Shown here in pieces: positions 2,328 through 46,811 of a stretch of DNA of 64,000 nucleotides (position 1 is its first letter; the number at the start of each line of letters is the position of its first letter). Location: contig WION01000046.1 of assembly GCA_015039365.1 (NCBI GenBank), positions 210,981 to 274,980 on the forward strand. The letters are read 5' to 3'. The stretch is from Amanita rubescens. Taxonomy: Eukaryota > Basidiomycota > Agaricomycetes > Agaricales > Amanitaceae. Under the pieces are notes generated by a model. It saw nothing but the letters and a program-made list of their open reading frames with translations, was not told where the DNA came from and did no database searches. The translations under genes and the position numbers were made by a program.

Positions 2328-5111
2328 CTAACCAACACTATACCCAATCACAGACGATTGCCTCGACCTTATACTCGCTTGACTCGAAGTCCGATAATGA
2401 AGCGCCCCCCTCCTCTTCAAGCTCCCACTCCCCTTACTCACCTGCCTCCACGCATACATCGACTTCAACACATCCTGTATAGCCGGTCTCTGCGTTGGTT
2501 CCTTGGTCCAGCAATGTCGGATCAACCCCCACTCGTCATCGCTCAACGGCGGATCGATCAGTCGAGGTGGGTACACCCCGCGAGAGATGAAGACCATGAT
2601 TTGGACTTTGCTCGAACCCGCAAAAGGTACGGTATCATAATGGATCTGGTAACTCTTTTATTTTTCGAGCCGAATTGCATGTTGGTGATTGCTCACCTCG
2701 TAATAGAGAGACCCAAAGGCATAAATATCCGACTCTGGCGTCGCATTGTCGGGATCGTACGCTTCTGCGTCAGAAAACATGAATAACTCGGGGGGCAGAA
2801 AGCTGTAGTGTTGCGCTTCAAGCTGTTCGTAACGTTGGGTTAACCCAAAGTCGGAGATTTGGACGTGAAGGTCAGCATCCAACAGTATGTTGTCCTAACA
2901 GGAAGAGGTGAGTACTACATCCAACAATGCTGTGATGAAGGTAAAGTACCCCACGAAGACTGCCATGAACCACGCCTTCGGAGTGGATGTAATGAATGCC
3001 CTGGGCAACTTCCAGGAGCTTCCACGGAGGTGAGTCCATCGCGACTAAATGGGGAAGGAAGAGGCGTACACGTTTTTGTACCTCCGATGCCGACGGGTTC
3101 GCCTTCTTTCTCCACTGAGCCAGAGTCCCGTTCGCCATCAACGGCGTCACGAGAAACGACTGTGACGCTGGTGCATCATCGTAGATCCCCAAGAACGGTA
3201 GTACGAACTCGTGATTGAGAGATTGCCACATCAGGGCTTGTCGACAGATACTCTGTACGTACATCAACACTGGCCATCGAGAGATTCAAGGTGCGACTGA
3301 CGACAAAATTGGTATGACGACTTTTGTGCAACGCTTCTAGCGAAACAGGTGAGCCTTCCAGTACGCCTTTGACACGATCGGCCGAGACGGAGAGTCCAGT
3401 CAAGAACAAACATCTCGGCATGATAGGCATCTTCGTTATGATTTTGGTCATTAACCGCCTTGCCCGGCGGTTAAGGTCCATCTTCGCATCGGGGGTTACT
3501 AGGCAACGATTACGAAGCATGTGAAGCATGAAATCCAACAGGTTGTCAACGTCAGAAGCGTGAGTGAGCATTGGCGAAACAGTCACGCAATCTTCTTTAG
3601 ATAGCCAGTTGCGCATAAGCTCGATCGTTTTTGCGTTCACGAGGGACGACCTAGGCTGCTTTTGCCTAAGAATCGAAAGCAACACCGAGACGGGAGAGCT
3701 ATCCGAGTTGCGCTGCATAACCGTTGGAGAGACGGACATTTTTTCAGCGATATCTTCTATCGTGGGTCGTTTCGCCGCGTTCGCCACCCAACAGGATTGG
3801 ATCAACTCCCATGCGGCGTCGCTTAGAGGCGGTTCTTCTCGTCGGGATGGACGGTCTCCGTGAGAGATGAGTCTCATGATTTGAACCTCCTTTAGACCCT
3901 CGAAAGGCATGACATCGTAATGGATCTAATTGACATCCGTTATTTGTTATACCAGGTGCGTAATACTGTGACTCACCTCGTAATAGAGACAACCAAACGC
4001 ATATATATCCGACCTTTGCGTTCTCGCCATCATCTGTTCATCCTCATCAGAAGATCCGCCAACGGCGTCGCCTTCGATAAACCCAAACAGCTCTGGAGCC
4101 GCAAAGTTGTAATGCAAACATCCTGTTCGGGTGATGGTAGTTTCGGAGTGGCGGGTTAGACCGAAATCGGTGATTTGAACGTGAAAGTTGGAGTCCAAGA
4201 GGATGTTGTCCTGAGGGGTGGGTTAGCATGAGGTGAGTGGAGAGAAGGACAGTGTACCCCGCGGAGATCTCCGTGAACGACGCCTTCAGAGTGGATGTAT
4301 TGGATGCCTTGTGCTACCTCTCGGATCTTAACTAGGATGAGTGTGCGCTAGGCAAAGGAGGAAAACTTTGTGCGCACGCGTTCTTGTATCTCGGCAACAG
4401 ATGGTTTTATATCTTTTCTCCATTGGGAAAGTGTACCGTTCTTCATATACGGCGACACGAGAAAAAATTGCGTTGCCGATTCCGTTTCGTAAATCCCCAG
4501 AAAAGGGAGTACGAATTTATGTTTGAGAGATTTCCACATTAACGCTTCCCGACAAAAATCCTGTCCGCATTATTAAGATATATATATACGAGATTGTATC
4601 GAAGGGCAACTCACGATATTATTTTGAGTTTTAAACAACAATTTCAGCGCAACCGCCTCCCCTCCGAGTTTTCCCTTGAACACATGACCGAACCCACCGC
4701 CACCTAGGTACTCCCGATTATCCTTCATCTTAATCCCAGTGACGAACAACGATCGTGGCATAACAGGTGTCGTTTTGATGATTTTCATCATCAACCGTCT
4801 CGCGCGCCCATTAACGTCCAGCTTGGTCAAATGACCGTGATGTAAGAGGTAAAGCAGGAAATCGAGTAAAATGATGATATCCGAGGCATTGGATAGTTGT
4901 GATGCGATGTTGACGTAGTCTTCTGCGAGTAAGAGGTTGTAAGTGAGCTCGATGGTGGAGGTGTTGACGATAGAAGCGATTGAAGATCCGTGCTGTTTTT
5001 TTGAGTTTAGATTTAGAAAAAGGGAGAGGGTGTGCTTCGTACCTTGTTTTCTCTGAGGATGGAGAGGAGTAATGTGAGAGGGGGTGTGTGTCGACTTGGA
5101 TTGCGGGGCAT
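2328..5111 (-). CDS. Tandem kinase-pseudokinase protein (two TKL-type kinase modules in one gene)
   Basis: The start ATG is at 5111 (exon 1 5043-5111, exon 2 4615-4992, both phase 0). Module A has a helical pre-kinase region, a GGGGFG loop, VALK lysine, HGDLRG catalytic Asp, ITDFGLTR and an APE-type motif, so it looks catalytically competent. The C-lobe exon then runs without a stop (3910 to about 3300) through a short linker, SVLLSILRQKQP, into the pre-kinase region of module B. Module B is degenerate. Its glycine loop is deleted (SADR runs into VKGVLEG), VALK is VSLE (Lys to Glu) and HGDL is HGSL (Asp to Ser). ISDFGL remains, and the APE-type motif reads PPE. The C-lobe ends SDDEWGLIRHCW...QRPAIQDV with a short basic tail. 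Likely a cytosolic protein in which B could regulate or bait A; that is inference. No transcript supports the joins. Confidence 0.75.
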
Positions 5112-6600
5112 TGACTCACAGTTGTGGTCGAGACACGTGGTTGCCTCGTGTACGTTAGCATTTTTTTTTCCAAATACAGGAATGGGCGCTTATAAGCTGG
5201 TGGGGTTGGAGATTGCGTCATCCGGCGACTGATAAGCGATGTTTGCGGGGTGGTGTTGAGGGTAATGTAGTGTGTAGTGGTATCGGAGAGATTGGTGAGC
5301 GTAGAACGGAGAGAGAGGTGAAAGCGTAAAGGATGACGCGATGACGTGCGTCGTGTGTGCCACGTGTCAACCTGACCAGTGGACTACTTTACATCCGCAA
5401 CGCAAGCGTCTCCTTAGTGACTCGCTGCATCTTCAGAGACTCGACGCTACTATTTCCCCCTACTCAATTCATCGTCAGCAAAGGTACTATGGGATATCAT
5501 CATGGTACCGTTTTTCATCGCGCATATACACATCACGAGCAAGTCTCATTGTCGACATTAGGCTCCACGATCCCGCGAATGATGGGAATGAAGTCAACGT
5601 ATTCAGCCCTGCGATTGATGGGTACGGGGCTCAAGTAACCGCCAAGTGATGAATAGCAGAGGAGAAAGTGGTTTCAGATATACCTCCAAGTGATCTCGGT
5701 CATCTCCCAAGAGACTACATCATTCCTATCGCCCATACTGCACGATAGCTGCGGAAGAAAGTATAATTGAGTGACCAATGCACTATCGGGGGCGGCGCGG
5801 CGGGAAGAACACAGCTATAGGGATCAACACAGGAATACACGCACGAGTATAGGATATTCAAGTTATCTCGGCGTCGATGTCCCGCTCTCGAAGTTTTTGA
5901 CAATGACATCCGTTTCACTTTTTTAAAACTATCCACGACTCGTGCTTAGCTACAAACATCAACTAATAGCAGTAATTCGTACCAACCGGTTTGTCGCAAA
6001 GTCTGCCTCTATGTTTTTGGCGAGTGACGTTCCTTGTTGTCATCCGGCGGGCTTGTTCCTGGTGAGCTCCATAGTTTCACGTTGTTTATGTTAGGAACGC
6101 TCGTCATTTGGGACGTTGGTGACCTGATAGGGCGGCTTTGCATTCACGGCGCCCTCGACCCGTTGGACAAACTATTGATTGCCGCTGGATGAGTCTGGGA
6201 CAACTTCATGCCGTATGTACGTCACGGTACCCGAGCTTGGCAAGTATGCGACCCTGTTAACCTTAACAGCCTATTATTTTATTTTGGATTTAGTCTGGAA
6301 ATATGTCATTGTTGTTGATGACCGTGAACTCCTGCCCTCCATGGCTGCGATAAGTGAAAGCGAATGCAACATGCATGGCCTCTCAGCTTCGTATGTACTA
6401 TACGGCGAAACACAGTTCAGATTTGAGGCCGCGTGGAATATGACCCCCGATCACTTCGCTTGTCTTGATTGACAAGCATCACGCATCATAGCACTAACAT
6501 TTATGTAAATAAACAAATTTTCGGCTCGCAAACTATTTAACGCACTTCTTCTGTTGCCCGTTACACGTTGCCTTGCCCACCCCGTCTACGCCGAACAGCC
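5112..6600. other. No supported gene
   Basis: This is the upstream side of the tandem kinase gene. Overlapping short open frames at 5341-5649 and a 97-codon frame at 6179-6472 show no recognisable domain or convincing splice structure. From about 6480 the sequence becomes similar to 11.6 kb, the left edge of a segmental duplication. Confidence 0.45.
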
Positions 6601-7250
6601 ATGCGTTCCTTCTTTTCGGTCTCTGCTCTCTTCCTTGCCGCCTCCGTCGCACTGGCGCAAAATGAATTCACGATCGATACTCCGTAGGCAGTCATTTATT
6701 ATCCCAAAAGTCTCTCATCCAATATATGCGCAGGTCTAATGCAGTTGTTTGTCAGACCGTTCTCATCAATTGGAGAGGAGGCATGCGTACGTGTTTAACC
6801 ATCTTCTCCTTACTACCCTGTCACTCACCAACGGTCACTTCAGCCCCGTATTACCTGGTTCGTTACTACTGATATTATATTTTATTGGTATACAACTCAA
6901 CCTCGGAATTCTGTTTTTATTACTGTAGAGGTGAGCACGCTTATTACAATCCCAATCAGTCGCGGACTAACTCGGGTGTAGCGTTCTTCCCGGGTCTCAA
7001 CCAGGTGGTACCGCTATTGAGAGTTTCCCCCCGAACTTGGGACATTCCCAGATTTGGGATGTCGATATTGCTGCCGGTGGGTTACATAGTCGCGGCCTAT
7101 CGATGTTCTGTAAACGGATTTATGTTAGGAACGCAAGTCGGTTTGACCCTCCGTGACGGGACAGGAGCTTTTACGCAGAGCGCACCCTTCACCATCAATC
7201 CAGGACCTAGTACGTTCAAAATGCTCCTGATTTGTGTAGAATTTGTTGAC
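6601..7250 (+). pseudogene. Decayed small secreted protein gene, Kre9/KNH-like Ser-Thr-rich family
   Basis: The ATG at 6601 opens a clear signal peptide (MRSFFSVSALFLAASVALAQ) and mature start NEFTIDTP. An intron (GTAGGC...GCAG) leads to SNAVVCQTVLINWRGGM, and later pieces give IWDVDIAAG and GLTLRDGTGAFTQSAPFTINPG. These match the pattern of small secreted basidiomycete proteins with a Kre9/KNH-type beta domain (xVxCQPVxxxWxGG, WxVDIxAG, LRDxTG). The DIAAG and LRDGTG parts lie in different frames, and no credible intron joins them, so the gene looks frameshifted near 7085-7120. A second degenerate copy is at 11749. Confidence 0.6.
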
Positions 7251-7569
7251 GTACTTTTCAGATAATGATTGTTTGACATACTAACAGTCTACCGTAGTGC
7301 GGTCGAAAAATGGCCTCGTGTAGCTAGTCTGTTTCTGAATTGATTCTAAATAAAAAAAGCGTTATCATTGTTCCGTGAGACGTAGACAATGATACGACGA
7401 TGTGACAGTGAAGCGTGAGGGAGTACTGTATACGCATTATATGTGGGGCTGCCTGACACTTGCGTGAATAGCGACGTGAGCAGCATAAATTACGAACAAA
7501 CAGTATCGCAGCGCTACATTTACGATATTCTTTATAAGTGAGCTGTCCCGTGTTGGCCGAACGTACAGC

Positions 7570-7960
7570 TCAACGCTCCTGAACCTCAGGTAGCCTAGAA
7601 TAGACACGGTGTAACCTATGCGCGTGTGGATCTGGCCCGTTGGAGGCACGATTGTTGGTGGGGTGTTTGGTCTTGTGCCCATGAAATTCAGGACTCTTTT
7701 GCCAGATATTTGTTGCATTGCTCTTTTCTAGTGACCACGTCCCATAATCCATCCACCATGGAACATCCCGGACTTCTGAAGAACGGCGGAGCCGGGACCA
7801 TTCGGGGCAAGAAACCGAAGCCCTTTGCAAGTCATCATTATCTTCCGGATATCTTTGGTCGTTTCGCGCCCTAGTAGCACCGTTGAATCAAATTCCATCT
7901 CCTTCACTCAACGGCAGCTCATGCTGTCGGGGAGGATATGCTTCTCGAGATACATCTCTT
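7570..7960 (-). pseudogene. Relic of the 3' end of a kinase gene
   Basis: The minus-strand reading includes ATNIWQKSPEFHGHKTKHP and ends YSRLPEVQ. This parallels the tail of the kinase at 12686-14508 (ATNIWQK..., HKTKHPANK..., YSGLPEVQ). Nucleotide similarity continues into the C-lobe region up to about 7960 and then stops. No kinase catalytic exons remain. It is the partner piece in the segmental duplication with 12.7-13.26 kb. Confidence 0.7.
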
Positions 7961-11640: not shown

Positions 11641-13262
11641 CCAAATTTAAATAAACGACTTATTACCGCTCGCAGGTTATTTACTTAGCGCACTTCTTCC
11701 AATGCCCGTTACACGTTTCCTCGCCCACCCCATCTACTCCGAGCAGTCATGCGTTCCTTCTTGTCCGTATTTGCTCTCCTCCGAGCCTTTACCGCCTCCG
11801 CAAATTTAACTGACTCCGTAGGCTGTCATTCATTACTACCAGTATCTCATCAAACATGTCACTGCAAGTCTAATGTAGTTGCTTGTGAACGCGTTTTCTT
11901 CACTTGGAGAGGAGGCGAATGTACGTCCTCAACGGTCACTTAAGCCCGTATTACCTGGTTCGTTATTGACATTATTCCCCATTCGTATCAACTTGACTAC
12001 GAAATTTCGGTTTGATTACTGTAGAGGTGAGCACACTTATTATGATCCTAATCAGTCGCGGACTAACTTTGGAGTAGCATTCTCCCGGGGGATACTCTGA
12101 CGGATGCCCCTCTTAATAATAGTTTCCCTCCAAACTGGAGACGTTCCTTGGAAGATTGCTACCGACAGTGAGCTACATAGGGATAACCGATCGAGGTCCT
12201 GTAAGCCCATTTATTCTAGGAACATACATCGGTTTAACCCTCTGTGACGGTGACGGGACAAGCTATTGCGCAGACCGCACCCGAAGTTCACCATCGATCC
12301 GGGAACTAGTACGTCCGAATTCTTCCGATTTTTCGAGTTTATTGACGTAATTTGTAGCTGATGAATCTTTGACAAACCGGTAAGCACTCCGCTGTAGTGC
12401 TGTCGAGAACTGGGCCTCGTGTCACTGTTTCTGAATTGATTCTAAATAAAATAAATCTAGTTTGAGGCGTATAAAATGGATACGAGTGCGTAAAAGTGAA
12501 GCGCGAGTGAGTACTAGGTACGAATCATATATTAGGCTGACTGAAACTTGCGTGATGCCTGAGCGACGCGAACAAAATAAATTACGAACAAAACATCCTT
12601 TCAATCAGAAGCCACGCTTCTCGTGTCGCAGCGTTATATTTACGTTATTTTTCATAACCGTGTTTGCAGAAACTACGGCTCAACGCTACTGAACCTCGGG
12701 TAGCCCAGAATAGACACGCTGTAGCCTATGAGCGTGTGGATCTGGCCTGTTGGAGGTACGTTTGTTGGCGGGGTGTTTGGTCTTGTGTTCGTGAAGTTCA
12801 GGACCTGCGGGATAACCCGGACCCTCCGCCCTGGCAGCGCCATTGGAAGGACCAAATCGATTTACGGGGTGCGTCGGTGAATGGCCTGGCAACTCCTCAT
12901 ATGTTGAGCTTGGAGGATGACTTGGCGCAGATCTCGAACCTGGAAATCGGAACATCTTCCAAAACGTCTTGATTTTTTGCCAGATATTTGTTGCAGTACT
13001 CTTTTCCTTTCCTAGTGTCCGCGTCCTATGATCTGATCTACCACGGGACGTCTCGGGGCTCTGAAGAACGGCGGATCCGGGACTATTTGGGGGTACGGAC
13101 TGATGTCTTGTCCAAGCCATCATTGTCTTCCGGATATCTCCTATCGCTGGTCGTTTCGCCGCATCCCGCACCCAGCACCATTGAATCAAATTCCATGCCC
13201 TGTCACTCAATGGTGGTTCATGCAGTCGAGGAGGGTGCTCTCCTCGAGATATCATCTTCATG
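11641..13262. repeat. Segmental duplication, copy 2 (partner at 6.48-7.96 kb)
   Basis: It repeats the order seen at 6.48-7.96 kb: leader, secreted-protein start, AT-rich spacer, then a minus-strand kinase 3' end. Here the kinase part merges into a complete kinase gene (12686-14508). This suggests copy 1 arose from a segment cut within such a gene. Confidence 0.72.
11749..12340 (+). pseudogene. Decayed small secreted protein gene, second copy
   Basis: The ATG at 11749 starts MRSFLSVFALLRAFTASAN, a signal-like peptide corresponding to the copy at 6601. After an intron (GTAGGC...GCAAG) the frame reads SNVVACERVFFTWRGG. Downstream pieces (RGEHTYYDPNQSRTN, YIGLTLCDGDG) are broken into different frames with early stops. 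Divergence is greater than in the first copy, and I consider it non-functional. Confidence 0.6.
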
Positions 13263-14508
13263 ATTTGAATGTCCTTTGACCCCGCGAACGGCATACCATC
13301 GTATTGAATCTTCGTTATCCCCCTTTTAGGATTGATACCAACACATTTATTAATTCTTACCTCGTAATAGAGACAACCAAAAGCATACACATCCGACTTT
13401 TGCGTTCTGGCCGTGGATAGTAAACCATCGTCCAGAGGCAAATCTCCTTCTGGGGGAATTCCGAATAGCTCGGGAGCGGCAAAGTTGTAATGTCCCGCCC
13501 CGGAACGGGTAACCGTAGATTCCGAATACCGGGTTAATCCAAAATCGGCGATTTGAACGTGAAAGTTAGCGTCCAAGAGAACGTTATCCTGAAGAAGACG
13601 GTTCAGCATTTCAATTTAGTGCATTTCATGCAGCTTACCCCTCGCAGATCGCCGTGAACTACACCTTCTGAATGGATATATTCGATTCCTTGGGCCACTT
13701 CCAATAGCTTACAGGGAGATAGGTGAGCAGCATGAATCGCCGAAGGATGAAAGTCATACAAGTCTTTCTACGTCAACTGTCGATCGAGGGACCTTCTTCC
13801 GCCATCTGGATAGAGTACCGTTCTCCATATATGGAGAAACAAGGAAAAATTGTGATTTTGATCCGGTTTCATAGATGCCTAGGAAGGGTAGGACAAATTG
13901 GTGATTGAGAGACCGCCACATCAGCGCTTCTCGACAGAAGTCCTGTTTGAGCGGATATCAATCAACGGTGAACGACGTGGTGGGAGTTATTTACGACGTA
14001 CGACATTGTTATGCGTTTTGTATAAGACCTTCAGCGCAACAGCCCGCTTTCCTAGTTTGCCCTTGAAAACGAGCCCGAACCCTCCACCACCTATGATTTC
14101 ACGATGGACCTCCGTCTTAACCCCCGTCACGAACAATGACGCTGGTATAACAGGTGTCTTTGTAATGACTTTGAACATGAATCGCCTCGCGCGCCGGTTG
14201 GCGTCTAATTTTGCATCCTGATGCGATAGGTGACCGTTACGCAACAGGTAAAGCATGAAATCCAGCAGAATCTTGACGTCTACTTCGTCCCTTAGCTGAG
14301 CGGCAACATTGACGTAGTCTTTCATGAACAACAGCTGGCGTGTTAGTTCAATGGTCTCCCGATTTACGACAGACTTGATAGAGGACCTATGCTACTAGCT
14401 TTATGTAAAAGGAATGGATAAGTTTGAACGCTAAGGCTATCGCACCTTCTTTTTCTTAAGAATAGAAAGCAACGATGGAAGAGGTGTGCTGTGTGAGTTG
14501 TTCTGCAT
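12686..14508 (-). CDS. TKL-type protein kinase with proline-rich tail
   Basis: Exon 1 14446-14508 (MQNNSHSTPLPSLLSILKKKK) and exon 2 14002-14391 (390 bp) give the pre-kinase region and an intact GGGGFGLVFKG loop with VALK. Exon 3 from 13942 carries FCREALMWRSLNHQFVLPFL. The next exon has EYIHSEGVVHGDLRG. The DFG exon has IADFGLTRYSES and FAAPELFG. The C-lobe has PLSDRAWNLIQWCW...KRPAIGDI. All catalytic residues are present. The C-terminal tail of about 150 residues is Ser/Pro-rich and ends SGLPEVQ. It has no Hsp70, DUF6699 or SH3 domain. Substrate and pathway are unknown. This gene donated, or shares ancestry with, the relic at 7570-7960. Confidence 0.8.
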
Positions 14509-15738: not shown

Positions 15739-18318
15739 TTACCATTGCCATCCCCATTCTTGGTTATCATGAAGCAGGACGCCTCGTACCTCGGTTTTAT
15801 CCATTTCGAGGCCTACTTCAAAATCTACCAGACGATCGATAAGTCCTGCCTAGGGAAGCGTTGCACTACGTTACCTGTATAGAATCCACCTGATTGATAC
15901 ATCCTCGCGTTTTGCTTGAAAGTTGGTAACGAGGAGAGATCGATTGCCCATTTACAGCGTTCGCCGATTGTGCCTTCGTCAGCGTATCTCATGATTTTGT
16001 CTTCATCACTTGCGAAAATCGTTACGACAAAAATGCAATCTATAAAGATAACTATGAGCGGTTCGGGAGAATACGTAGGTATAGTACCTAGCGCGTTCTT
16101 TGAGAATTTTCTAGGTGAATTGTCATTAGGATTAAGATTCCATTTCGACGAACTAATCACCGGAATAAGGATATCGACCGTTGCCTGTATTGGCAAGATG
16201 AGATGAGTTCCGCAATAAAACTATTATGCGCACCCTTTCCTGAGAATAGTCCCCTTTTCGAGCAGGTACCGCACCCTAGCGAACTGTCAACTGAGGTCCG
16301 GCCACATTTTCGCAATATACCTATTTTCGCAAATTGCAGTACTTCCATAATTATTCATGACATACTCAGGCCTCCTTAGCACGTCTTCTCGCTCTGCAGG
16401 AAGCTTTACCTTGCATCCAAATAAAATCAATAAAGAAGCGCCTCAGGAAGAATAGAAAACACACATTTATCATATACGAGCGAGGTGCCATGACCGACGA
16501 TACGAGTTGCTTCTCTAACAAGCCACATTGAACTGCTCCACGTAAAGTCGCAGTGCCCGCATCGGCTGGCCTTGAGATGGTTGCAATCTTTGACCCGAAC
16601 TGAGTCTAGATACTGATCAGCACATTCTTGGGAAACCTCGATGAGCGTACCTCGATGCGTTGTTTCAGGTACACGCTTCCAGCACCTCCTACAAGAAAAA
16701 GCGCATCAATTGACTCAGTCATCTTTTCGATTTGCTGTTCAATCAAAGTGAGAACCTATGGTGCAATACGAAACGTAAGAGTGGAAAGGATGGCAGGTAT
16801 GTTAATAGCAACAAACCTGATTGATGACGGGATCGAAGACCATATCACGGAGCAGTTTCCCAGGTATGCAGAGTTGACCGTTTATTAGGCCGACCGAAGG
16901 GTCATTTGGATCCTCCCGGTTAAAGCAAGTGAAATGGAACATGGTGGCTATGAAGATCAAATCAGCTACTTGCAGAGACTTCCATAAACTTACACACTTA
17001 CCATCGTCATCAAGACCTAGATACGTCAGCTTCTCAGTCTCAGCAAACGAATGGACTATAAGGGTCATGTAAAGTTGTCGAGGATGCCGACGATTTCTGT
17101 ATATTATACTGACCGAAGTAAGCCAAAGATGCGGCGTCGAGATGCGCTGGGTGGTCGCTTAGAAGAATCTGTGATGAACGTAAGCTGAATATCCATCCCA
17201 GGCTCAGGCACAATCGACCTTACTTTAACAAGACCTCGAAATCTCATGTCCATAGAAATGCTGCCGCAATCGGAACTCGATTGTTTACACATCTCGGCAA
17301 TTTCAGGATTTTCCGTTTCACCGATCACCTATATATCTATGTCGTACTTTGCCACATCATGCGTTGGGAAAGCTAATCACCTTATAAACCTATCAAAGCA
17401 CGGTCAAGAAAAAGGCTGGTATAGTCAATTGGGCGTTCTTACGGCAAGAGTGCAACTTCCTCCTCCCGCGTCGACAATCATGAAGTTCTGAGACAGGATT
17501 AAGCGGTCTATATCTGCGTGAAGGGAACAGTAAACTGCTGCTGCCTCGTTCTCAGCGATAATGTGAAGACGATCTCGCCATCTATGATCGCTATTCCTCT
17601 CCTTTTGGACTAATCCAGCTGTGGTAGCCGCTTCTCGCATTATCTTGCGACTCTCTTTGTCCCATGTAGCCGGTACTGTCAACCAAATATCCGCATAATC
17701 TAAAAAGGATGAGAAGACATTCTAAAGACAACGAAAACGAATGTACTCAGATCAACAGCACTACCTGCTTGCCGTACTATTTGATACTTGGCGTATTCCC
17801 ATAATCGTTCCAAATAGTCAACGATCAAGTCAAAGGCCTGTTTCCTTGGCTATTATCCGAGGAAATTGTCACTTTTTCAGATGAACGAGGGAAATAGGGA
17901 CGGACTGGTAAACTTGGTAATCTGGCGGACGCTTCATTATGCAGATTTTGTGGTTCCATGAAACATTTAAACCATTCACAACGTACAGTTCCATGGATCT
18001 GACCTGCGCTCTTGGCTTCAAGGCCCCAGGCTAAGACGCGACCCTTCCGGTCGTATAGCAGGCAAGTGGGTATCTACGTATGGATAATTAAGTCATGAAA
18101 CGTTATGGACAAATCGCGCGTACCTCTCTCAAAGTTTCAAGAGATCCGTGTTCAATTTTGCCCTCGGAAATACGTGAAAATGCGTATGCCTAAGCAGTGG
18201 ATGAAGTTATATACATCATATCATCCTCAACATGAGGCTTGACTCACAACTCCAGAAAAAGTGGTACCTATCGCATAACAATAAGGAACGGTTATTGCTT
18301 CGTCGAGTCGTCACTCAC
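15739..18318 (-). CDS. HSPA12-like Hsp70 half of a kinase-Hsp70 fusion gene
   Basis: This continues in frame from the kinase half at 18319. The kinase C-terminal exon ends KITIAIDFG, and a 20-nt exon at 18248-18267 supplies TTFSGV, completing the Hsp70 phosphate-1 motif. Later exons give AYAFSRISEGKIEHGSLETL, IPTCLLYDRKGRVLAWGLEA and GTVRCEWFK. The next give LIVDYLERLWEYAKYQI, ADIWLTVPATWD, RLHIIAENEAAAVYC and FMIVDAGGGSCTLAV. Then follow FHFTCFNREDP, GLINGQLCIPGKLLRDMVFD, DALFLVGGAGSVYLKQRIE, RPADAGTATLRGAVQCGL, VMAPRSYMIN, ILRKGQRSISLFRKFSKNAL and a final EVGLEMDKTEVRGVLL, stopping at 15739. All phases I checked fit, so this half appears intact. Two oddities: the second phosphate loop reads GGGSCTL where a relative has GGGTCDL, and GGFAGS is shortened to GGAGS. 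HSPA12-type proteins bind ATP; chaperone activity is uncertain. Confidence 0.78.
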
Positions 18319-19975
18319 CGAAATCGATTGCGATCGTTATTTTCCCTTCGTTCTCTGCACGTGACGGAGTTCGAGGGACAGGTGGTGTGCGGGTACGGGT
18401 AGATAATGGTGGTGTGGTAGATACATTACCGGGGTTGAAACCAACGAGGAGTTTGGTGGTCAGAAAGGAATTCGATCCGTCCAACAAAGATGCGCCATTG
18501 AATGAAATTTCATTGATAGAATGCTTGGATATAGTTCCAAATTGATCGAAGCGTGGCCATGGACTTTGCAACGTCCGAGATTCTGAATTTGGAGTATTAG
18601 AAGTAATAGATCTCCATGCTCTCATTCGGTTTGCGATGTCTTTCATCATTGGCCGTTTGGAAGGTTCCTTCTTCCAGCAACGGTGAATTAACTTCCACGC
18701 CTCATCACTCAAAGGTGGTTTGTTTAATCGAGATGGACGCTCCCCTTTAGAGACGCGCTTCACGATCTGAATGTCCTTTATTCCCGCAAAAGGAATAGTG
18801 TCGAAATGAATCTAGGCGGCTCGTTGTTTAGCAAGAGAATCAGCTTCTTGGCTCTCACTCACCTCGTAATAAAGACAGCCGAATGCATATATGTCCGCCT
18901 TTTGGGCCCTGTCCAGCGATTGGGCATCGTCGGCATTATCGGCAGGATAATCTTCGAACAACTCGGGGGCTGCGGAGTTGTAGTGTAGTGCCGCTCCTGA
19001 TTGAGTAACGGAAGAGTCTGAATGCCGGGTTAATCCAAAATCGGCGATTTGAACATGAAAGTTGTCGTCCAAGAGGACGTTATCCTAACGGAGCGGATCA
19101 GTATTAGAACAAATAATGTGTCAGGTACAGTACCCCGCGAAGATCACCATGAACTACGCCTTCTGAGTGAATGTATTCAAGACCTTGAACCACTTCCATC
19201 ATCTTATAGGGAGTGTGAGTATAACGGACAGTCGAAAGAGGCAAAGTCATACCCGTTCTTCTATCTCAACTGTTGATCGATTGGTTTTCTTCCGCCATTG
19301 GGATAAAGTACCATTCGTCATGTATGGGGATACAATGAATAATTGTGATGTTGCTTCATTTTCGTAAATCCCTAGGAACTGGTAACACGAACTTGTGATT
19401 GAGAGATCGCCACATCAAGGCTTCGCGACAGAAATCCTATTTGGGCCGAGATTTATAAATGGGTCATAAGATCGATGGGCAACGTACAATATTGTTATGA
19501 GTTCTGTACAACACTTTCAGCGAGACGGGTGCTCCTTTCAGTTTTCCCCTTAAAAACGAGCCCAAACCCGCCACCATCAATGTATTCGCGATGAGCCTTC
19601 ATGCTAACGCCTGTCACGAACAATGAAGTTGGCACGACGGGCGTCTGTGTCATGGCTCTGAACATCAATCGCCTTGCACGCCGGCTGCTATCCGGTTTTG
19701 CGAAGTCTCCGCTGCGCAGCAGGTAAAGCATGAGATCCATTAGATTCTTGACGTCCGAGGCATTGCTTAAATCACTGGAAAGGTTGGCGAAGTCCTTCGT
19801 GAACAGCAGCTTGCGCGTCAGTTCAATAGTTGAAGCATTTATAACGGACGTAATCGGATTCCTCGGCTAATATCCTTAGGTTAGGCTTTTGGAATTTCTA
19901 ATGTCGGCGCACCTTCCTGCCTCTAAGAATCGAAAGCAGTAACGGGAGGGAAGAGCCGTCTGAATCCTCTTCCAT
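18319..19975 (-). pseudogene. Kinase half of a kinase-Hsp70 fusion gene, two frameshifts
   Basis: Exon 1 is 19913-19975 (MEEDSDGSSLPLLLSILRGRK), and the six-exon layout matches its relatives. Exon 2 (19488-19866) is 379 bp, which is not a multiple of three. Near 19546 one extra C in a C-run shifts the frame just after FGLVFKG. Exon 3 (19253-19436) is 184 bp against 183 bp in two sister genes, because of one extra base near 19380. The first Gly of the loop is Asp (IDGGGFG). HGDLRG, IADFGLTR, APELFE and the C-lobe (KRPMMKDIANRM) are intact, and the last exon runs straight into the Hsp70 start (IAIDFG). If the insertions are real the kinase is dead, although the Hsp70 half is open. Assembly error is the alternative. 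Confidence 0.72.
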
Positions 19976-23540: not shown

Positions 23541-23588
23541 CTATAATAAATTAGTAAAACGCCCAAGCACGTAGCATTGGTGACTTGC

Positions 23589-28614: not shown

Positions 28615-28679
28615 GCTTACGGGAGTGGGCTTAAATAGAATAACTCTCCATCAGATCTAAGACATAGACCGAAGCAGAC

Positions 28680-32477: not shown

Positions 32478-35400
32478 ATGGACGATCCATTCAGCGACCG
32501 ACCTGCGGCAGTCACTACTAGGGACATGCTAAGAGAGAGAGATGGCAGACAAGTGGGGGAGCGCTTTTTGGACGACTCGGACTCGGACTCGGACTCGGAA
32601 ACGATGGAAGAACTGGGTAATGGAAATGAAAGTTGGAACAGCAGTTCACCAAGAGGCCCAGTGGGGATGGAAACCTCATACAATACGCACCATGTTCTCG
32701 AGAGCGATATGCTCTCATCGCTTCTCTCTATACTCAATGCTAAGAAGGTGCGTAGCAATTCTAAGCGCATGTTAACTCTGCTCAAGACATGTAGCCCGGA
32801 TCCTCTATCACGTCCGTCGTAAACACCAACACTACCGATCTCATGCGCAAGCTGTTATCTGGGGAAGACTACCTCAGCAGCGCGGCAAAGCTAGATCGTA
32901 CCGCGGACTCCCAAAATCTTCTCGACTTCATGCTTCACATGCTTCGCTATCGTCTCTTACCAAATCAGGATGAATCGGTGGACTTCAACCATCGGGCACG
33001 GCGATTTATGTTCAAGATTATAGTGAAAAAGCCTATCACACCATGGTCCTTAATCGCAACTGGAGTCAGCCAGCCGGCGGAGCAGGATTATATTGGCGGT
33101 GGTGGGTTTGGGCGCGTTTACAAGAGCGAGCTGAAGGGGGAAGCCGTTGCGTTGAAAATATTGTACAAGTCCGATAATGATGCTGTAAGTCCAACGTGTC
33201 CTTCCTATAACATAACTTCTCATTTCTGTTCCAGCTGGCCTTTTGTCGAGAGGCATTGATGTGGGGATCGCTAAAGCACAAATTCGTTCTGCCATTCCTG
33301 GGAATCGACGAACACGAAGATGGAACAGCCTATCTTATCTCTCCCTATATGGAGAAGGGCACTCTAGCTCAGTGGCGGAAGCAGGCAAATCCATCGGTAT
33401 CCGGGATAGAAGAACGTGTACGTCTTTTCTTTAGTTGACTCGCAGATGATCTCACCCTTCTGAAAGATACTAGAAGTGGCTCTAGGCATCGAATATATTC
33501 ACTCGGAGGGCATAGTTCATGGCGACCTCCGTGGGGTACTCTACCCAGAAACATGCTATTTTGAGATACTGACCATTTTCTTTAGCAGAACGTTCTCCTT
33601 GATGCTAATCTTCACGTTCAAATTGCAGATTTTGGGTTAAGCCGACTCTCAGATGCAACCATTACACGATCTGGGGCGAAACATATGCACTTCGCGGCCC
33701 CGGAGTTGTTTGGACACCTCGAGGCCGGCAACGACCATTCAGCTGATAATTCAGCCAGGACCCAAATGTCGGACATCTATGCGTTTGGATGTCTTTACTA
33801 TGAAGTGGGTTATAATTAATAAGCAGGCGCTCTTACTGAATTACCCAGATCCATTACGACAACATACCTTTTGCCGGCAGACAGGGCTTACAAATCATGG
33901 CCTTTGTTTCTCAAGGCATACGTCCGCCTCGACTGGACGACCCACATTTGAAAGATGAAGCATGGGAGTTGATCAAGCGGTGCTGGGCGAGGATGCCGTC
34001 AGAACGACCGGCAATGAAAGACATCGCCGAAATGATGATGTCCGATCCAGACCGTCATCCCCTCCTATTTCTGCTTTTCGTTCTGAAGGATTGGAAGGTA
34101 TGGCAACATCAGAAAGCGCACCCACGCAGTACTTAAGAGCTTGTAGCCCGGATCTTGTATCACGTCTGTCGTCAACGCATCGATCATCAATCTTGTGTGT
34201 AGAATCTTATACAGAGAAGACTATCTCAGCATTGTGGATCAGCTTAACCAAGCCCCAGATGTCCAGAACCTATTGGATTTCTTGCTTCACTTACTTCGCG
34301 ACCATCGCTTGTCCAATTCGAATTCAATAGACATCAACGGGCGAGCGAGGCGATTGATGTTCAAACTCAACTCAAAGATACCTGTCATCCCACCGTCATT
34401 GATCGTAACAGGAGTCAACATGCCAGCCGAGCGCAATTACGTTGGTAGCGGCGGATTCGGGCGTGTTTTCGAGGGCAAACTGCGGGAGGAAGTTGTCGCT
34501 CTGAAAGTATTGTACAAGTCTGATAACGACGTTGTAAGTCGTTTACGTCGTTCTTATACGGATATTGTTGATTGCTCTCCAACAGTCCTTTTGTCGAGAA
34601 GCGTTGATGTGGGGATCTCTTAAGCACAAGTTTGTGCTACCGTTTTACGGAATCTACGAGGTTTCGGATGGAAGAGTGCCACAATTTTTCCTTGTCTCGC
34701 CCTTCATGACCAATGGTACTCTGGCCCAATGGCGGAAGAAAGCAGATCCATCAGTATCCGAGATAGATGAACGTGTATGGCTCCTCTACTTTGGCCCTTT
34801 ATTGACACTTACTTCGCTTCGAAGATACTGGAAGTGGCACAGGGTGTTGAATATATTCATTCAGTAGGCGCAGTTCACGGTGACCTTCGCGGGGTATTCT
34901 ACTTGAAACGCGCTGCATATGACTGCTGATAATTCTCTTAGGATAATATTCTTTTGGATGCTAATCTTCGTGTTCAAATCGCTGATTTTGGATTGACCCG
35001 ACTCTCGGACGACACGAATACCCAATCAGGGGCTAAACATCTTCACTTTTCGGCCCCCGAGTTATTCGGGTTCTTCGATAATAATGATCTTAATGATGTT
35101 CCGGCCAGAACGCAAATGACGGATGTCTATGCGTTCGGGTGTCTTTTTTACGAGGTGAGTCGTAATAAACACGCTGATACTTGTGCTGAACTACCTCAGA
35201 TCCATTATGACAGTGCTCCTTTTTCTGGTAAAACGGACTTACAAATCTTGGGCCTCCACGCTCGAGGGGAACAACCGCCTCGACCGAATCATCCACCGTT
35301 GAGTGACGGAGCATGGGACATGATTCAACGATGCTGGGGGAGGGATGCGTTGAAACGGCCAAGAATGAAGGGTATCACGAAATACATGATATTGTTATCT

Positions 35401-35901
35401 CAAGATCCTACCACCGAGATGGTACGAAGTGTAACATCCACTGAGTTTTTCTATGAAGAATAATTTACTAATGTTTCCGATCGCCTGTCAGCATCCCCCA
35501 TCAACTGTGCGCGTTTATTTTTACTGGTGACATTAAAATTATGCCTCACTTATATATTCCAGATACCACACCAATCTATCACTGGTACAGTGGAATCATT
35601 ATCCCCGCCCGCTCACTCTTCTAACACGCGTTCTATTACAGCTGTGTACAACCTGCCACTGCATGACTCACTTGATCCGCAATCGGCTGGAACCATGTTG
35701 ACCACCAGTGCGACTCTTGTTGAACGAGAACGTCGCAACTACGACATTTATCCAATATACGAAGAACCATCTGTTGCGCCAGCACGCCAAAGTACATCCT
35801 CAAGACAGCTTTACTCACCTACGCACATAGAATCACACGTGGTAAGCATTGGGTTTATTGCCCTGGGATCCGGGTTGAATCACATCGCTTTAGGACTCTG
35901 A
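32478..35901 (+). CDS. Dual TKL-type kinase protein (two active-looking kinase modules in one gene)
   Basis: Exon 1 is 32478-32747 (90 codons), including a DSDSDSDSE run from a GACTCG repeat and the conserved DMLSSLLSILNAKK. Exon 2, 32795-33184, gives the pre-kinase region and GGGGFGRVYKSE with VALK. Then come IVHGDLRG, IADFGLSR and FAAPELFG. The exon 33849-34097 (249 bp) encodes the first C-lobe and ends FVLKDWK. It splices in phase 0 to 34147-34533 (387 bp), which starts PGSCITSVVNASI, the pre-kinase region of module 2. No stop intervenes, so both kinases lie in one protein. Module 2 has GSGGFGRVFEG, VALK, AVHGDLRG, IADFGLTR and SAPELFG. The tail (IPHQSITGTVESLSPP...) is disordered and ends at 35901. 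All catalytic residues are present in both halves. Confidence 0.78.
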
Positions 35902-35949
35902 TAACAACACCACATATCCAATCCTTTATCGGCGTCTATCCTCTGAATC

Positions 35950-38379: not shown

Positions 38380-39901
38380 ATGGCACACCGCAACTCTGTC
38401 AATCACTCCCTTCCACCACTGCTTTCTATGATGAGGGAAAGACAGGTGTGTCATCTTTAGGATGCACGTATGCCTTCCAGCTGACGGTCCGCAGTCCAGA
38501 TTCCCCCTCACTTCTGTCGTAAATGAATCGACCATCGGTCTCTTACGAAACGTGTTATCGCACGAAGACTACGCCCTTGCCGCGGAACAAGTCAACAACT
38601 CTTCAGACATCGAGAACGTGTTGGAATTACTGCTTTTCGTACTACGCAACCGTTACCTTTCAAACCCAGATACGAACGTGGACACGAATCGCCGTGCAAG
38701 ACGATTCATGTCTAAAATCATATCAAGGTCTCCCGTTTTGCCAAGATCCCTGTTCCTAACGGGGGGTCTCACCATGCCTGGCGATCGCGATCTCATTGGT
38801 AAGGGTACTTTCGGGCTCGTGTTCAAAGGTGAACACGCAGGAAAAGCTGTTGCACTAAAAGCACTATACAAAACTCGCAAAAATGTCGTACGTTACCACA
38901 TCAATCTCTTTCCATTCCATCTTTCATTTCGATACATCAAAATCAGGATGTCTGTCGTGAAGCGTTGATGTGGCGATCTCTTCATCACAAATTCGTGTTA
39001 CCCTTTTTGGGGATTTACGAAAATGAAGCAGCGGGTCGCATCTTCCTCGTCTCGCCGTATATGACGAACGGTACACTATCACAATGGCGGAAGAAACAAG
39101 CACCATCGCCGCTGGATATTGAAAAACGTGTATGTTTCTCATCACAGCACTGGTTTCGGTTGTTGACTTTTTGAAAGCTCGTAGAAGTCGCACGAGGAAT
39201 CCACTACATCCACTCCGAAGGTGTTATCCACGGTGACCTTTGCGGGGTACCTCCTCAAATCTTGATATTGTCGATATGCTGACTAACTTCTCTCAGGACA
39301 ACATTCTCCTAGACGCCGATCTTCAAGTCCAAATCACCGATTTCGGATTAACACGACATTCTGAAGCTACAGCAACGGGAACGGGAGCACTGCGTTCCAG
39401 CTTTGCTGCTCCAGAGCTATTCGGATACAACGAAAGCGAATTTTCCGATTCAGAAGATTCAACAGCCAGATCACAAGAGTCGGACATCTACGCTTTTGGC
39501 TGCCTGTATTACGAGGTGAGCAATACCAAATATCCCGGTGCCCTACCGAACCCCGGATTGCACAGATCCATTACGATGTCATTCCTTTCGAGAGAGCACC
39601 ACCCATGCACATCGTACAGGCTGTCTCCAGAAACGAACGTCCACCTCGACTAGATGACCCACCCCTAAGCGACGACGCCTGGCGACTCATCCACCAATGC
39701 TGGGCACACGAGAAATGGAAGCGCCCGGGCATCCGAGACGTCGTCAAAACCATGAAATCCTGGGGAATCCCCCAGGGAATGTCACCTACCACCAAGCTTC
39801 CTCTTTCAGCCACGTCCAGAATTCCGCAACGAACAAGCAAATCCCATTCGGCGAATAGACATTTGAAAAGCCAGGGATCTTTTAGCGGGGATACAACCTG
39901 A
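38380..39901 (+). CDS. TKL-type kinase, inverted near-copy of the 23.6-25.3 kb kinase, no Hsp70
   Basis: The exons are 38380-38445, 38495-38887, 38947-39129, 39178-39246, 39297-39515 and 39566-39901. Exons 1-5 have the same lengths as in the minus-strand sister, and even the introns are similar. The loop is GKGTFGLVFKG, with VALKALYK, VIHGDLCG, ITDFGLTR and FAAPELFGYN, so catalysis looks intact. The tail diverges after SHSANRHLKSQGSFSG and stops at 39901, well before any Hsp70 start. It is thus a truncated version of the fusion architecture. ATG 38347, 33 bp upstream and in frame, is an alternative start, and the frame is open back to an ATG at 38176. Confidence 0.85.
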
Positions 39902-42184: not shown

Positions 42185-43529
42185 ATGTCCGTACCGGGCT
42201 CTCCATGGGCCGACATGCCTCATGGCATAGACATCAACGCCGGGCCCATCATCCCTCCCCCACCAGGGGCGACGTACCAACAGCCAAGGTGAGCCGGTAT
42301 TTTACCTGGCCTCGCTCTACTCTACGTGCGTCATGCTGACGAAGTACCTACGCCACACAAAAGAGTATCCAACGGTACTCCTTACCCCCAGTATCCCACT
42401 TACCTCCCCGCGGATCATCCCTCTACACCCCCTTGGGCCGCATCTTCCTTCCCCCCAGCTACCAGTTATCCACCATGGGCAGGAGCAGGAGGGGCACCAC
42501 CCTACGCACAGACACCCGCCGGCTCGTTTGGGCTACCAAGTCCTGCTTCCTTTGGACCGGCTACCCCAATGTCAGGTTACACCCCATTGTCGTATGTCAC
42601 CCCCTCCATGTCCGCTCAACCGATCGCCGCCACTCCCTACTTCAACGCTGCCGCCAGACCTGCGGGAGGCGCGCTTGGCTTAACCGCCTCACCTATGCTG
42701 GATGGCTATGGCTATCCACTCTCTCGAACACCATCAGGCGGCGGGGGCGGACGGAAAAAGAAACGCAGCATCGCTGGAGGGATCATTGGCAAATCCGCTT
42801 CTGCCGGCAGCAGAAGTGATTATCAACTCTGGAGTGGACCAGAGGTCTACAGTCTCAAGAACCTAGCGAGGAGACCGAGGGATTGGAGACCTGATTATAA
42901 CCCTCGCTCCGGGATCGCGTCCTATATCTCGTTGGGGAAGCATAGATCTGATGTTCCTGGTACGTCCCTCCCTGAAAAAAAAAAACTTTAACGCTGACGA
43001 CATACTGACGTTACGTTGCGCAGAGTACACTGATCCGGTCAAACGGACGCTCAACGCCTTAATTTCATACAGACCCGGGGAACCTTCCATGTACTGGAAT
43101 CTCCGATATTCGCCGCAACCCGGATGTATCGATTTTATGAAACTCAACCGGGCGTATAACAATATCGATATGGTCCAACTCGCGACGAGTCCACCTGCGG
43201 ACCAGATGCGGCTTTACCATCCCAGATTACCGTGGTACATTGACGTGTTCAGAATGACCCCTAACGGGATTACGATACAAGACGTTTTGTTCGCGATTTA
43301 TAATCAGCTCGCGTCCCAGATACATCAACGACATTATTATAATGAAGAACTGGACGATGCTCATCGCGGCGTGTTGAGTGCCGCGTTTAGCGATCGCTGT
43401 GGGAATCGGAGAAGTGAATCAGAAAGAGGGATTTTACAGATTGATTTTTTGGCGGACAAGTTTGTTTTGTTCGGTCTCGTAAAGGGAAAGAATGGGATGT
43501 GGGAGTTGAAAACGGGTGAGGAGGACTAA
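42185..43529 (+). CDS. DUF6699 domain protein
   Basis: Three exons: 42185-42288 (MSVPGSPWADMPHGIDINAG), 42364-42959 and 43024-43529, all phase-compatible. The N-terminal half is Pro/Gly-rich and disordered, with a basic GGGGGRKKKRS patch. The C-terminal half is the folded domain. Landmarks are DPVKRTLNALISYRPGEPSM, LPWYIDVFRMTPNGITIQDV, IYNQLASQIHQRHY, LSAAFSDRCGN and a closing FLADKFVLFGLVKGK...MWEL. These follow the DUF6699 pattern, a domain frequent in Agaricomycetes and of unknown function. The same domain is fused to a kinase in the neighbouring convergent gene (44390-46601). Confidence 0.8.
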
Positions 43530-44389
43530 ACCGTTTCGCGTTGCACGTTTTTGCTTTTCTCTCTGTCTCTCTCCAAAACTGATTATACCGCTGTGTTTTG
43601 TTTGTGCTTTTTTTGTTGTACGTTTTCTCTTAATGTATCAATACATATTGTCTTTAAGAAGCTTTGTTCACGAGTTCTGATTCGCATCACGCGCCAAGAT
43701 GACCGGTGTCAAGTGGAAATAGAGTGGTGAGAATAGAACAATAACCAAGGGACCTATTTTGGGTTCGTTTGTGCATTCATCAGTCACAATCGCGCATCTT
43801 GGAGCGTGGTGGGAATCCCTCGTGGGAGGGTCAGGAAAGGAGATATTCAGGGGTGTAATTCAACGCGGGGTTATGACCCTGCAGAACTTTGCTGTGCAGT
43901 GGCACTGCAAAATCGTATATGGGCGCAGCGCGAGGCTTCCACGTGGACGGTGATCTTCCTTCGGTCCGGGGAACGCGTATAAGCGCTGACAGCGCTCATG
44001 CTTTCCAGTTTGACTCGAACTTTGAGAAACGCCGACATCAATGACATCAAGCCACATTAACCAAGACGGGGTCATTAGTGGTGCCTGCTGCGGCAAACTG
44101 GTACGCAGCTCTTCTTTTCTCGACCTGACTGACTCGGAGATGTGATCACTGATTGGGCGTTCCAAGTAGTTGATCCAACGTTTTTGCTCTCTTAACCTGC
44201 CCTTGGGTGTTTGAGCTACGAAAGCTCTTTTTGCGACATCATAGAAGTTGATATTGCGCCTGAGTCTGTTCCCACACGCTAGCCAGACCATGTACGGTCA
44301 TAGCCACCATATCTCTGATACCAAATGGCCCGTTGATCATTACAGCGCAACAAAACACTAGAGTCATCCTCACCTCATGCATCTGCAGG
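43530..44389. other. No gene; shared 3' flank
   Basis: This lies between convergent genes. The first part is pyrimidine-rich 3'-flanking sequence. The open frame on the minus strand at 43860-44291 has no recognisable domain. Confidence 0.45.
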
Positions 44390-46601
44390 CTACATAGGTT
44401 CCAAGTAGCTCTCTGGGACAAGACTATGATGACCTTCCCTGCCTTTCCTTGTATCGTCCACGATGGCCCACCCGTCTCCTCGCCCCCCAACAACAGTTAC
44501 AAGCTGACCTTCCTCCAGTCCCATCTCATTGTCTCCCTCAGGCTCGAACGCATATAATGCGCGATACATCCCAGCAGGACGTGATGTATCGGCTCGCGCC
44601 GCATCAAAGTTCTTACGATCCGAAATTATGAGTCTCAGTACCTCCGGCGGCCCGTCGCCCGTCCCAACCAAACCCTTGAACCATACCTTATCCAAAAGAT
44701 AATCCACTTTCCTAATTCCTCCATTCCTCAAAAACCGTTCCCTCAAAGGTTCATTCGCGCACCGCTTGTAGAACGCCTGGTTCACTTTATCCTTCATCTC
44801 GGGATCCAGCCTTTCCCGATCACTGTGGGTGATCTCCTCATGCAGCGTGCGGTGAATCTGAGATAATACGTTTCCCAGACTCATAGTAGGATGTTCAGGG
44901 AGCGAAATCGTCCCCATCTGTTCGCGGTAACTGTATGGGTGGGACTCGAGGACGACAGGCCATTCAGGAATCTCATCGCATACAATTTTAAGGCGGGACA
45001 CTGGGGGACACGTAGCGGGTTGAGCTAGGGTATCAACACCGATAAATGCTGGCTGCCCATGGACGATTTGCATGGGTAAGTACTGCGATGAGAGATTGAA
45101 TATGAAGCCATTGCTAGGCGTTTGACCATCGAGGAACGGATGGATAGCAAATGTGCTGTAGGGTGCGCTACCTCGAGATGGTGTCAGATTGGACGGGAAC
45201 AGGACGACTGTCGGACTGGCAAATAGGGTTATAGCTCTCATGCTTTTTGTGACGTCTTTTATTCTTGGTCGTTTGGATGCTTTCCTCTCCCAGCATCGCT
45301 GAATCATGTTCCATGTCAAATCGCTCAAGGGCGGTTCATCTAGTCGAGGAGGAAGTGCGCCTCGAGAAACGAGTGTCATGATCTGTATGTCCTGTTTGCC
45401 TGAAAAAGGTATGCTATCATAATGAATCTAGAGATTTCTGCAATTAAGAGCGTGAGCATATTTATTATTATGACCTACTTCATAATATAGACATCCAAAT
45501 GCGTAGATGTCCGACATTTGTGTTCTGATCGGAACATCATCATCAGAAGGGTTGTCATCTTCAGAGAATCCGAGTAACTCTGGAGCTGCAAAATTAAGGT
45601 GTAATGAGCCCGATCGAGTATTTGTAGATTCAGAGAGTCGAGTTAATCCAAAGTCAGTGATTTGAACATGAAAATTGGCATCCAAGAGGATGTTATCCTG
45701 AAGAGAAGAGTCAGCATTTCAAATTAGCATGTTCTACGTGAGATACCCCGCGGAGGTCGCCATGAACAACGTCTTTTGAATGAATGTATTCGATACCTTG
45801 TGCCACTTCAAATATCTAAAGAGCGTGAGAGTCGACGAGAGTCAGAGAGGAGAAAAAGCTCACGAGTTTTTCTATCTCTGTTGCAGACGGGTTTACTTTC
45901 TTCCGCCATTCAGCTAGGGTACCATTCTTCATGTAGGGCGAGACGAGAAAGAATTGTGGTGCTGTTCCTTCCTCGAGTACGTATATTCCTAAAAACGGCA
46001 GCAAAAACCTGTGCCTCAGTAACCCCCACATTAATGCTTCTCGACAGAAAGCCTATCGAGTCAAAATTAAAGCGAACGTTATAACATTGCGACGTGAAGG
46101 ACTCACAACGTCGTTACCAGACCTGTACAATACTTTCAGCGCAACGGCGTTCCCCTGCAGTTTCCCTTTGAAAATGCGTCCAAATCCACCGCTACCGATA
46201 TAGTCGCGCTCAACCGGCATGCTGACTTGTGTCACCATCAGGGATGGTGGCACGACGGGCATAGTTGATATGATTTTGAACATCAGTCGTCTTGCTCGTT
46301 TGTTTATGTCAATGGATGCGTTCGGAAGGTTTGACAAACAACGGTTACGAAGCAAATGGAGCATAAAGTCCACCAGATTCTTGACGTCGGAGTCTTGCCA
46401 TGGCCAGTTTGCCGCAACGGTCACGTAGTCTGTACTGGATAACAACCGGGACATGTGACCAATTGTCGATGCGTTTACGACAGACGCGATAGAGGATCCG
46501 GGCTATGGGCTGTTGAGCAGGCTGTAGTATTCCGCGCTTTTGCCACACACCATTTGTTGGCTGAGTATTTTGAGTAACAATGAGAGGGTATCGTGCTGCA
46601 T
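44390..46601 (-). CDS. TKL-type kinase fused to DUF6699 and SH3 domains
   Basis: Exon 1 starts at 46601 (MQHDTLSLLLKILSQQM) and splices to PGSSIASVVNASTIG. The frame is also open upstream to an ATG at 46811, as in the dual-kinase gene, which has an extended N-terminus. The kinase has GSGGFGRIFKG, VALKVLYR, VVHGDLRG, ITDFGLTR and FAAPELLG, all intact. The C-lobe (TWNMIQRCWERKASKRPRIK) continues in one long open frame (44390-45379). First comes a DUF6699 domain (FAIHPFLDG, VSRLKIVCDEIPEWPVVLES, MSLGNVLSQIHRTLHEEI, NQAFYKRCANEP, KVDYLLDKVWFKGLVG). Then comes an SH3 domain (YRALYAFEPEGDNEMGLEEG, DGWAIV, SLVPESYLEPM). Within this window no other kinase has these domains. SH3 suggests recruitment to proline-rich ligands. 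Confidence 0.85.
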
Positions 46602-46811
46602 GTCGTATGGTAGCTGGACACGATCCACCTCTGCTTGGTCGAGCAAGACTGAACGATGGGTAGAGTAGAGGCTGTGCAGCAGAGTTGCTTTAGCGCTCAA
46701 TCGTGTGAATGGCTGAACGTCGGTGTCGGTCGGATAACTATATCGGGAGTGACCAGTGCTGACATGCCCGGCTGACATACGCTTTTTGAAGTACGCGACA
46801 TGAACTTCCAC

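Follow-up and report, generated by a model that had tools for sequence, protein, structure and literature searches.

The last 64,000 nucleotides of a telomere-capped, 274,980-bp contig (C396) of the mushroom Amanita rubescens, here called the window (G000:C396:210981-274980), carry eleven kinase units of one family, lying on both strands between window positions 2328 and 46601 and joined in several cases to one another or to other domains. We give a probability of about 0.5 to the reading that they belong to a very large soluble FslK/TKL-type family whose units are duplicated in tandem and become fused with partners, and whose proteins would serve as intracellular switches. This reading draws on the anatomy of the units, open frames that run over the joins, the recurrence of the joined forms, purifying selection on joined proteins including one dead half, and the presence of unfused relatives of the partner domains.

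Kinase units and joined genes in the window

Spliced models were built with a purpose-written aligner using one family member as guide, and yielded 11 units, matching the 11 DFG-type motifs returned by a motif scan. The original prediction, made from the letters alone, had placed eleven kinase domains of one family within about 44 kb, with a common exon layout and motifs, five architectures, and copies on both strands accompanied by inverted duplication, relics and pseudokinases, and the models bear out each of these points. The unit typical of the family consists of a short helical N-terminal module, the kinase and a short C-terminal linker. Six exons are found in 9 of the 11 models (1b has five, its first intron being absent, and E has seven); among the six-exon models, F differs in its last boundary and C has a shortened third exon, and intron lengths in five tabulated genes range over 44-59 bases. 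HGDL(R/C)G is kept in 10 of 11 units (HGS in 1b), as is the aspartate of DFG (GFG in F), while HG(D/S)L(R/C)GxN is present in all 11 and the AARN of tyrosine kinases in none; by-eye reading of the models places a proline at the fourth position of the GXR(L/M) motif in all 11. The kinase matches PF07714, and RIPK1 and tyrosine kinases are among the closest sequences of solved structure. The features, in window coordinates, are as follows.

2328..3718, minus strand: 1b, pseudokinase sharing one open frame with the end of 1a (spliced model)
3719..5111, minus strand: 1a, active-like kinase, first half of the kinase-pseudokinase gene (spliced model)
12686..14508, minus strand: B, kinase alone, 518 amino acids including a tail of ~140 residues (spliced model)
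16645..19975, minus strand: C, kinase-Hsp70 (kinase 18614-19975, Hsp70 16645-18343; models)
21918..25318, minus strand: D, kinase-Hsp70 (kinase 23926-25318, Hsp70 21918-23613; models)
26787..28579, minus strand: E, kinase (27154-28579) with relic of the Hsp70 first exon (26787-26819; models)
28921..30301, minus strand: F, pseudokinase relic with GFG, lost G-loop and C-lobe frameshift (model and motif check)
32478..35905, plus strand: G-H, dual active-like kinase (ends guided by P0001, 3' end approximate)
38380..39901, plus strand: I, single kinase without Hsp70, a 92% copy of D in inverted orientation (DNA similarity and model)
44390..46601, minus strand: J, kinase-DUF6699-SH3, 653 amino acids (spliced model and Pfam)
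6503..7957, minus strand: relic, duplicating B's 3' end and downstream DNA at 70-74% (DNA similarity)
42293..43529, plus strand: neighbouring unfused DUF6699 gene

The five architectures are thus kinase alone (B, I), kinase-pseudokinase (1a-1b), dual kinase (G-H), kinase-Hsp70 (C, D) and kinase-DUF6699-SH3 (J). Internal stops are absent from the models of 1a-1b, G-H, B, I and J, and a single open frame spans each of three joins. An open reading frame at 3176-3925 links the C-lobe of 1a to the N-terminal module of 1b within a model of 772 codons; 1b is without a G-loop, and its lysine (Lys to Glu) and catalytic aspartate (HGS) have been replaced. The last exon of G runs without a break into exon 1 of H (33849-34097), and a residue check found neither unit catalytically degenerate. 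The bounds of this gene, 32478 to ~35905, follow from a model guided by P0001, a single NCBI protein of 1034 amino acids from an 84,890-bp contig, which is 92.4% identical to G-H over 764 amino acids; over the longer span of the guided model, 794 of 909 residues are identical. The exon of J at 44390-45427 holds the end of the C-lobe, DUF6699 and SH3 in one frame of 345 codons (Pfam: DUF6699, 7.3e-24; SH3_9, 5.8e-9).

In both C and D the C-lobe exon continues into the start of Hsp70 (IDFG), followed by further Hsp70 exons, and the kinase part of D is stop-free. What E retains is 11 residues of the Hsp70 start, in a frame differing from that of its kinase end. This partner is of the HSPA12 type, with 41-54% identity in the 120 matches listed, some of them named heat shock 70 kDa protein 12B; it carries the ATPase motifs IDFGT(T/A)FSG and DAGGG(T/S)C, and a Pfam scan of the D model gave no match. 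D and I form an inverted pair, 91.9% identical over 1436 bases (dN/dS, the ratio of non-synonymous to synonymous substitution rates, 0.355 for the kinase only), and I lacks Hsp70 because the similarity breaks off within the linker. For J, unfused DUF6699-SH3 paralogues on C599, C559 and C604 are 88% similar, and the similarity begins at 45156, 77 bases past the last aligned kinase codon. From these similarity edges we place the break in the linker for both D/I and J.

Recurrence and selection across the genome and other species

The assembly (75.7 Mb, 786 contigs) holds many regions twice. Contig C5 is 96% identical to window positions 1-5929 and collinear with the window to ~11.5 kb, where C5 stops; identity is 80-90% within 6.0-8.6 kb and 96% over the rest of the shared 11.5 kb. 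Given this identity and collinearity in such an assembly, we take pairs of this kind as two haplotypes. The C5 allele of 1a-1b is stop-free and identical at 758 of 772 amino acids, with 34 synonymous and 14 other changes (dN/dS 0.117 overall, 0.159 for 1a and 0.097 for 1b). Retention of the dead half suggests that 1b has some role in the protein.

Joined forms recur beyond the window. A triple-kinase-Hsp70 gene lies at C396:202.9-208.8 kb, ~2 kb past the left end of the window, and has an allele on C5; NCBI P0002 is a partial three-kinase model of it. The last exon of its third kinase continues in frame into the Hsp70 start. Its unit 1 is active-like, unit 2 has lost the lysine (Lys to Arg) and unit 3 the G-loop. 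Between C396 and C5 no stop interrupts the 1104 modelled kinase codons, where 64 synonymous and 15 other changes give a dN/dS of 0.067, and the 322 modelled Hsp70 codons show 15 synonymous and 7 other changes (dN/dS 0.132). Hsp70 relatives in the same genome, at 67%, have no kinase within 0.9-1.1 kb upstream, and HSPA12-type relatives unfused to kinases occur in many Agaricomycetes among the matches listed. For the dual kinase G-H, another 11 copies span both kinases and one more is partial, at 81-93% DNA identity with haplotype pairs included; one copy is a single protein in the NCBI annotation, and pairwise dN/dS among six dual-kinase copies is 0.15-0.39 for each kinase half. At a second kinase-DUF6699 locus, on C13 (820 kb), 0.1 kb separates the two parts, against 6.7 kb on the near-identical C782 (L053, 1520-8219, reverse strand), and the near-identical models indicate that the two loci are probably allelic. 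Purifying selection between haplotypes points to function, not to recognition.

A search with exon 2 gave 150 scored copies on 54 contigs: 27 on C396, spread over 15-257 kb of its 275 kb, and 123 on 53 other contigs, 23 of these on C5. As 150 of 556 candidates were scored, these numbers are lower bounds, and they count both haplotypes. Spacing between same-strand neighbours was 1341-1522 bases in 31 of 89 cases (25 pairs and 3 triples) with none closer, 2037-2426 bases in 3 and beyond 2.5 kb in 55. The close spacing is similar to that of modelled fused units (1337-1380 bases), and tandem genes are therefore common. In Amanita rows, loss of one or more of the four catalytic residues tested affects 6 of the 11 later tandem domains that could be assessed; for first domains the figure is 1 in 9 and for single domains 3 in 42, together 4 of 51 (Fisher p 0.0011). 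The rows being related, we regard this as a tendency. The test was run without winC, P0024 and seven domains gapped at a tested residue, and, as it covers four residues, unit 3 of the triple gene (G-loop lost) counts as intact. Partner labels on a 71-row tree required 29 changes against a shuffled mean of 35.5, with none of 200 shufflings as low; this is a weak measure, taken from a quick tree in which kinase-only rows such as P0024 may be cut models. On the starred branches, a minimum of 3 changes is required for Hsp70 (4 rows, E being relic-only) and of 2 for WD40 (2 rows). The tree omits P0002 (the fuller triple model was used), P0051, non-Amanita rows and domains below 200 model positions.

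Among proteins, 7996 candidates were scored with the kinase and 84 matched at E 1e-20 or better, 53 from Amanita and the rest mainly from Mycena and other mushrooms. Annotated relatives join the kinase to WD40 (P0010, P0013), TOG (P0027), haem peroxidase (P0034), a G-domain (P0037, P0040, P0045) or NPHP3_N/NACHT (P0039, P0049), and in Mycena to SH3 and a fungal lectin; the kinase is C-terminal in the NACHT, G-domain, TOG and peroxidase relatives. The helical N-terminal module also occurs without a kinase, as at least one extra copy ahead of the kinase unit, in P0012, P0008 and P0016.

The claim of one conserved kinase module with changing partners therefore extends past the window, to the triple kinase-Hsp70 gene on both haplotypes, the C13 locus and the WD40, NACHT and G-domain relatives. 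A search of fungal proteins for the domain combinations of the window had been proposed with that claim. For kinase-Hsp70, the Hsp70 part gave 302 matches, and no Pfam kinase was found among the 120 listed, in a search of candidates 0.55-1.75 times the query length with precomputed Pfam annotation, which shorter, longer or unannotated fusions would escape. The DUF6699-SH3 part of J matched none of 1206 length-matched candidate proteins at E 1e-5, and J itself was not among the proteins found. The location, predicted to be subtelomeric, stands for this cluster, which ends ~17 kb from the telomere, but not for the family, whose copies lie along the whole of C396 and on the 53 other contigs: 'subtelomeric' describes the end of one array.

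Surroundings of the array

The contig ends in the following repeat.

63791..64000, plus strand: telomere repeat (TTTAGGG)x30, end of contig

The usual fungal telomere repeat is TTAGGG. In A. rubescens it is TTTAGGG, found also at the ends of C70, C76, C89, C109, C162 and C183, and likewise of C225, C228, C579, C602 and C604. Long telomere arrays are present on at least 12 contigs, two of which (C396 and C70) carry scored kinase copies. Adjoining the telomere, window positions 56000-62500 form a dispersed young repeat region, with stretches 92-100% identical on many other contigs. Between it and the kinase cluster lies a Helitron (49915-55314, minus strand) with an open frame of 1799 codons and Helitron_like_N and PIF1 helicase domains; Helitrons can move pieces of genes. 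Directly behind G-H is an array of ~145-base repeats in AT-rich DNA (35965-37283). At the other end, positions 1-1574 (minus strand) hold part of a multi-copy gene with many copies at 73%; in its product, 81 residues resemble the tail of the kinase protein P0030 (65%), which might reflect a further captured partner or an artefact of the model.

Known systems, competing explanations and meaning

By motif, the kinases fit the FslK group, described in PMC3937382 as a fungi-specific kinase lineage close to tyrosine kinases and expanded in Agaricomycetes. Shared features are the PF07714-type kinase of Agaricomycetes, the lack of AARN (here HGDLRGxN), the GXR proline in 11 of 11 units and the expansion in some species. 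Tandem and partner-joined forms are common in A. rubescens, in contrast to the extra domains reported there for only 16 of 241 FslK members. Open full-text papers contained one work on FslK by title, among the matches listed, and none on DUF6699 or on fused, tandemly duplicated subtelomeric protein kinase genes of mushrooms; nothing on such genes appeared under the A. rubescens genome and kinases, by title, or under pseudokinases in Agaricomycetes, by title or abstract start, subscription journals being mostly outside this scope.

In build, the genes resemble the plant tandem kinase resistance proteins Yr15/WTK1 (PMC6170490) and Lr9 (PMC10260399), which have two kinase units per protein, often one dead; here the likeness holds at the level of gene models, for 1a-1b, G-H and the triple gene. 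In having catalytically degenerate units, 1a-1b (unit 1b) and the triple gene (units 2 and 3) match the plant tandem kinase-pseudokinases and G-H does not, and Lr9 also has an extra C-terminal domain joined to its tandem kinases (PMC10260399). The plant proteins belong to another kingdom, while the named relatives of the A. rubescens kinases in the protein search are mushrooms, and A. rubescens has up to three units and Hsp70 or DUF6699-SH3 partners. Animal Janus kinases are set beside plant tandem kinases in PMC6170490. Like 1a-1b, they combine kinase and pseudokinase in one chain. Unlike the A. rubescens genes, Janus kinases possess FERM and SH2 domains and associate with receptors. Fungal NOD-like receptors offer a third comparison: PKinase stands in the domain table of PMC4986451, and kinases are named among N-terminal domains in PMC10197012. 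Relatives in A. thiersii and A. polypyramis join an NPHP3_N/NACHT-type domain to a kinase of the A. rubescens type, which differs in being C-terminal. A scan for NACHT and NB-ARC over the J exon, P0001 (the G-H relative) and P0002 (the triple gene) found none; 1a-1b and G-H lay outside it.

In the explanation we prefer, the unit of helical module and kinase would be copied head to tail, and its short linker would become joined to other genes (HSPA12-type Hsp70, DUF6699-SH3, elsewhere WD40). Each protein would then be an intracellular signalling switch with one intact kinase domain as output, and the pseudokinases and partner domain may regulate or sense, by analogy with plant tandem kinase-pseudokinases and Janus kinases. 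Several results weigh against it. Both kinase-Hsp70 genes of the window are frameshifted (C in kinase exon 2, D in the Hsp70 part), and F and the Hsp70 part of E are relics. One stop interrupts the guided models of 2 of 5 other dual-kinase copies, and another the kinase-DUF6699 model on C13; every unfused DUF6699-SH3 copy has a stop between the two domains, for which reason the donor and direction of the J join are left open. The partial NCBI model P0024 comprises 1a alone and terminates at the 1a-1b join. Later against first domains alone gives p 0.07 for catalytic loss, and three of the six later domains that lost residues form one clade. No allelic copy of window positions 41-47.5 and 26.4-31.3 kb turned up in the 40 places scored per search; these stretches may be hemizygous, or their second copy may be collapsed or unassembled, and J is consequently unavailable for selection analysis between haplotypes. 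Of seven NCBI proteins returned for the contig, P0024 alone maps into the window at ≥88%, which suggests that kinase arrays of this kind are under-annotated.

The joins, moreover, are predictions read from genomic sequence. That they are products of the modelling, by an aligner guided by one member, or of misassembly is nevertheless very improbable, as identical joins occur on two haplotypes and in many copies, three lie inside single open frames, and the dual kinase has an independent NCBI model. A birth-and-death array, in which tandem and segmental amplification, unequal exchange and transposons leave joins behind and most partners are functionless, is possible, though we think it unlikely. 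It would account for the frameshifts in C and D, the relics (E's Hsp70, F and 6.5-8 kb), the kinase-DUF6699 gap of 0.1 kb on C13 against 6.7 kb on C782, the Helitron and the 29 partner changes on the tree, but not for low dN/dS in the 1b half and the triple-gene Hsp70 on two haplotypes, nor for retention of the dual kinase in 11 further copies.

Doubtful to a like degree is an expansion serving fruiting-body or ectomycorrhizal signalling rather than recognition. Such roles have been proposed for FslK (PMC3937382) and raised for Laccaria TKL kinases (PMC2838846), and the TKL excess in Laccaria bicolor (PMC2838846), the FslK expansion in Agaricomycetes (PMC3937382) and purifying rather than diversifying selection on whole units agree with them; by itself, however, this explanation accounts for neither copy number, pseudokinases nor partner turnover. 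Still more speculative is the idea of mushroom tandem kinase-pseudokinase receptors, evolved independently of plants as partner-bearing intracellular guards or sensors (of nonself, parasite or partner), multiplied in arrays, with new forms arising as host genes are attached to the linker of the kinase. The NACHT-kinase relatives would be its best support, and no result ties the family to recognition.

The tandem, partner-joined build known in plants appears here, on the evidence of gene models, in FslK-like kinases of a mushroom, with Hsp70 and DUF6699-SH3 partners. The genome contains partner genes both joined and free, which makes it useful for studying domain capture, and a build of plant disease resistance in a fungal kinase group, in many copies and under purifying selection, gives an opportunity to test whether receptors or switches have converged in design.

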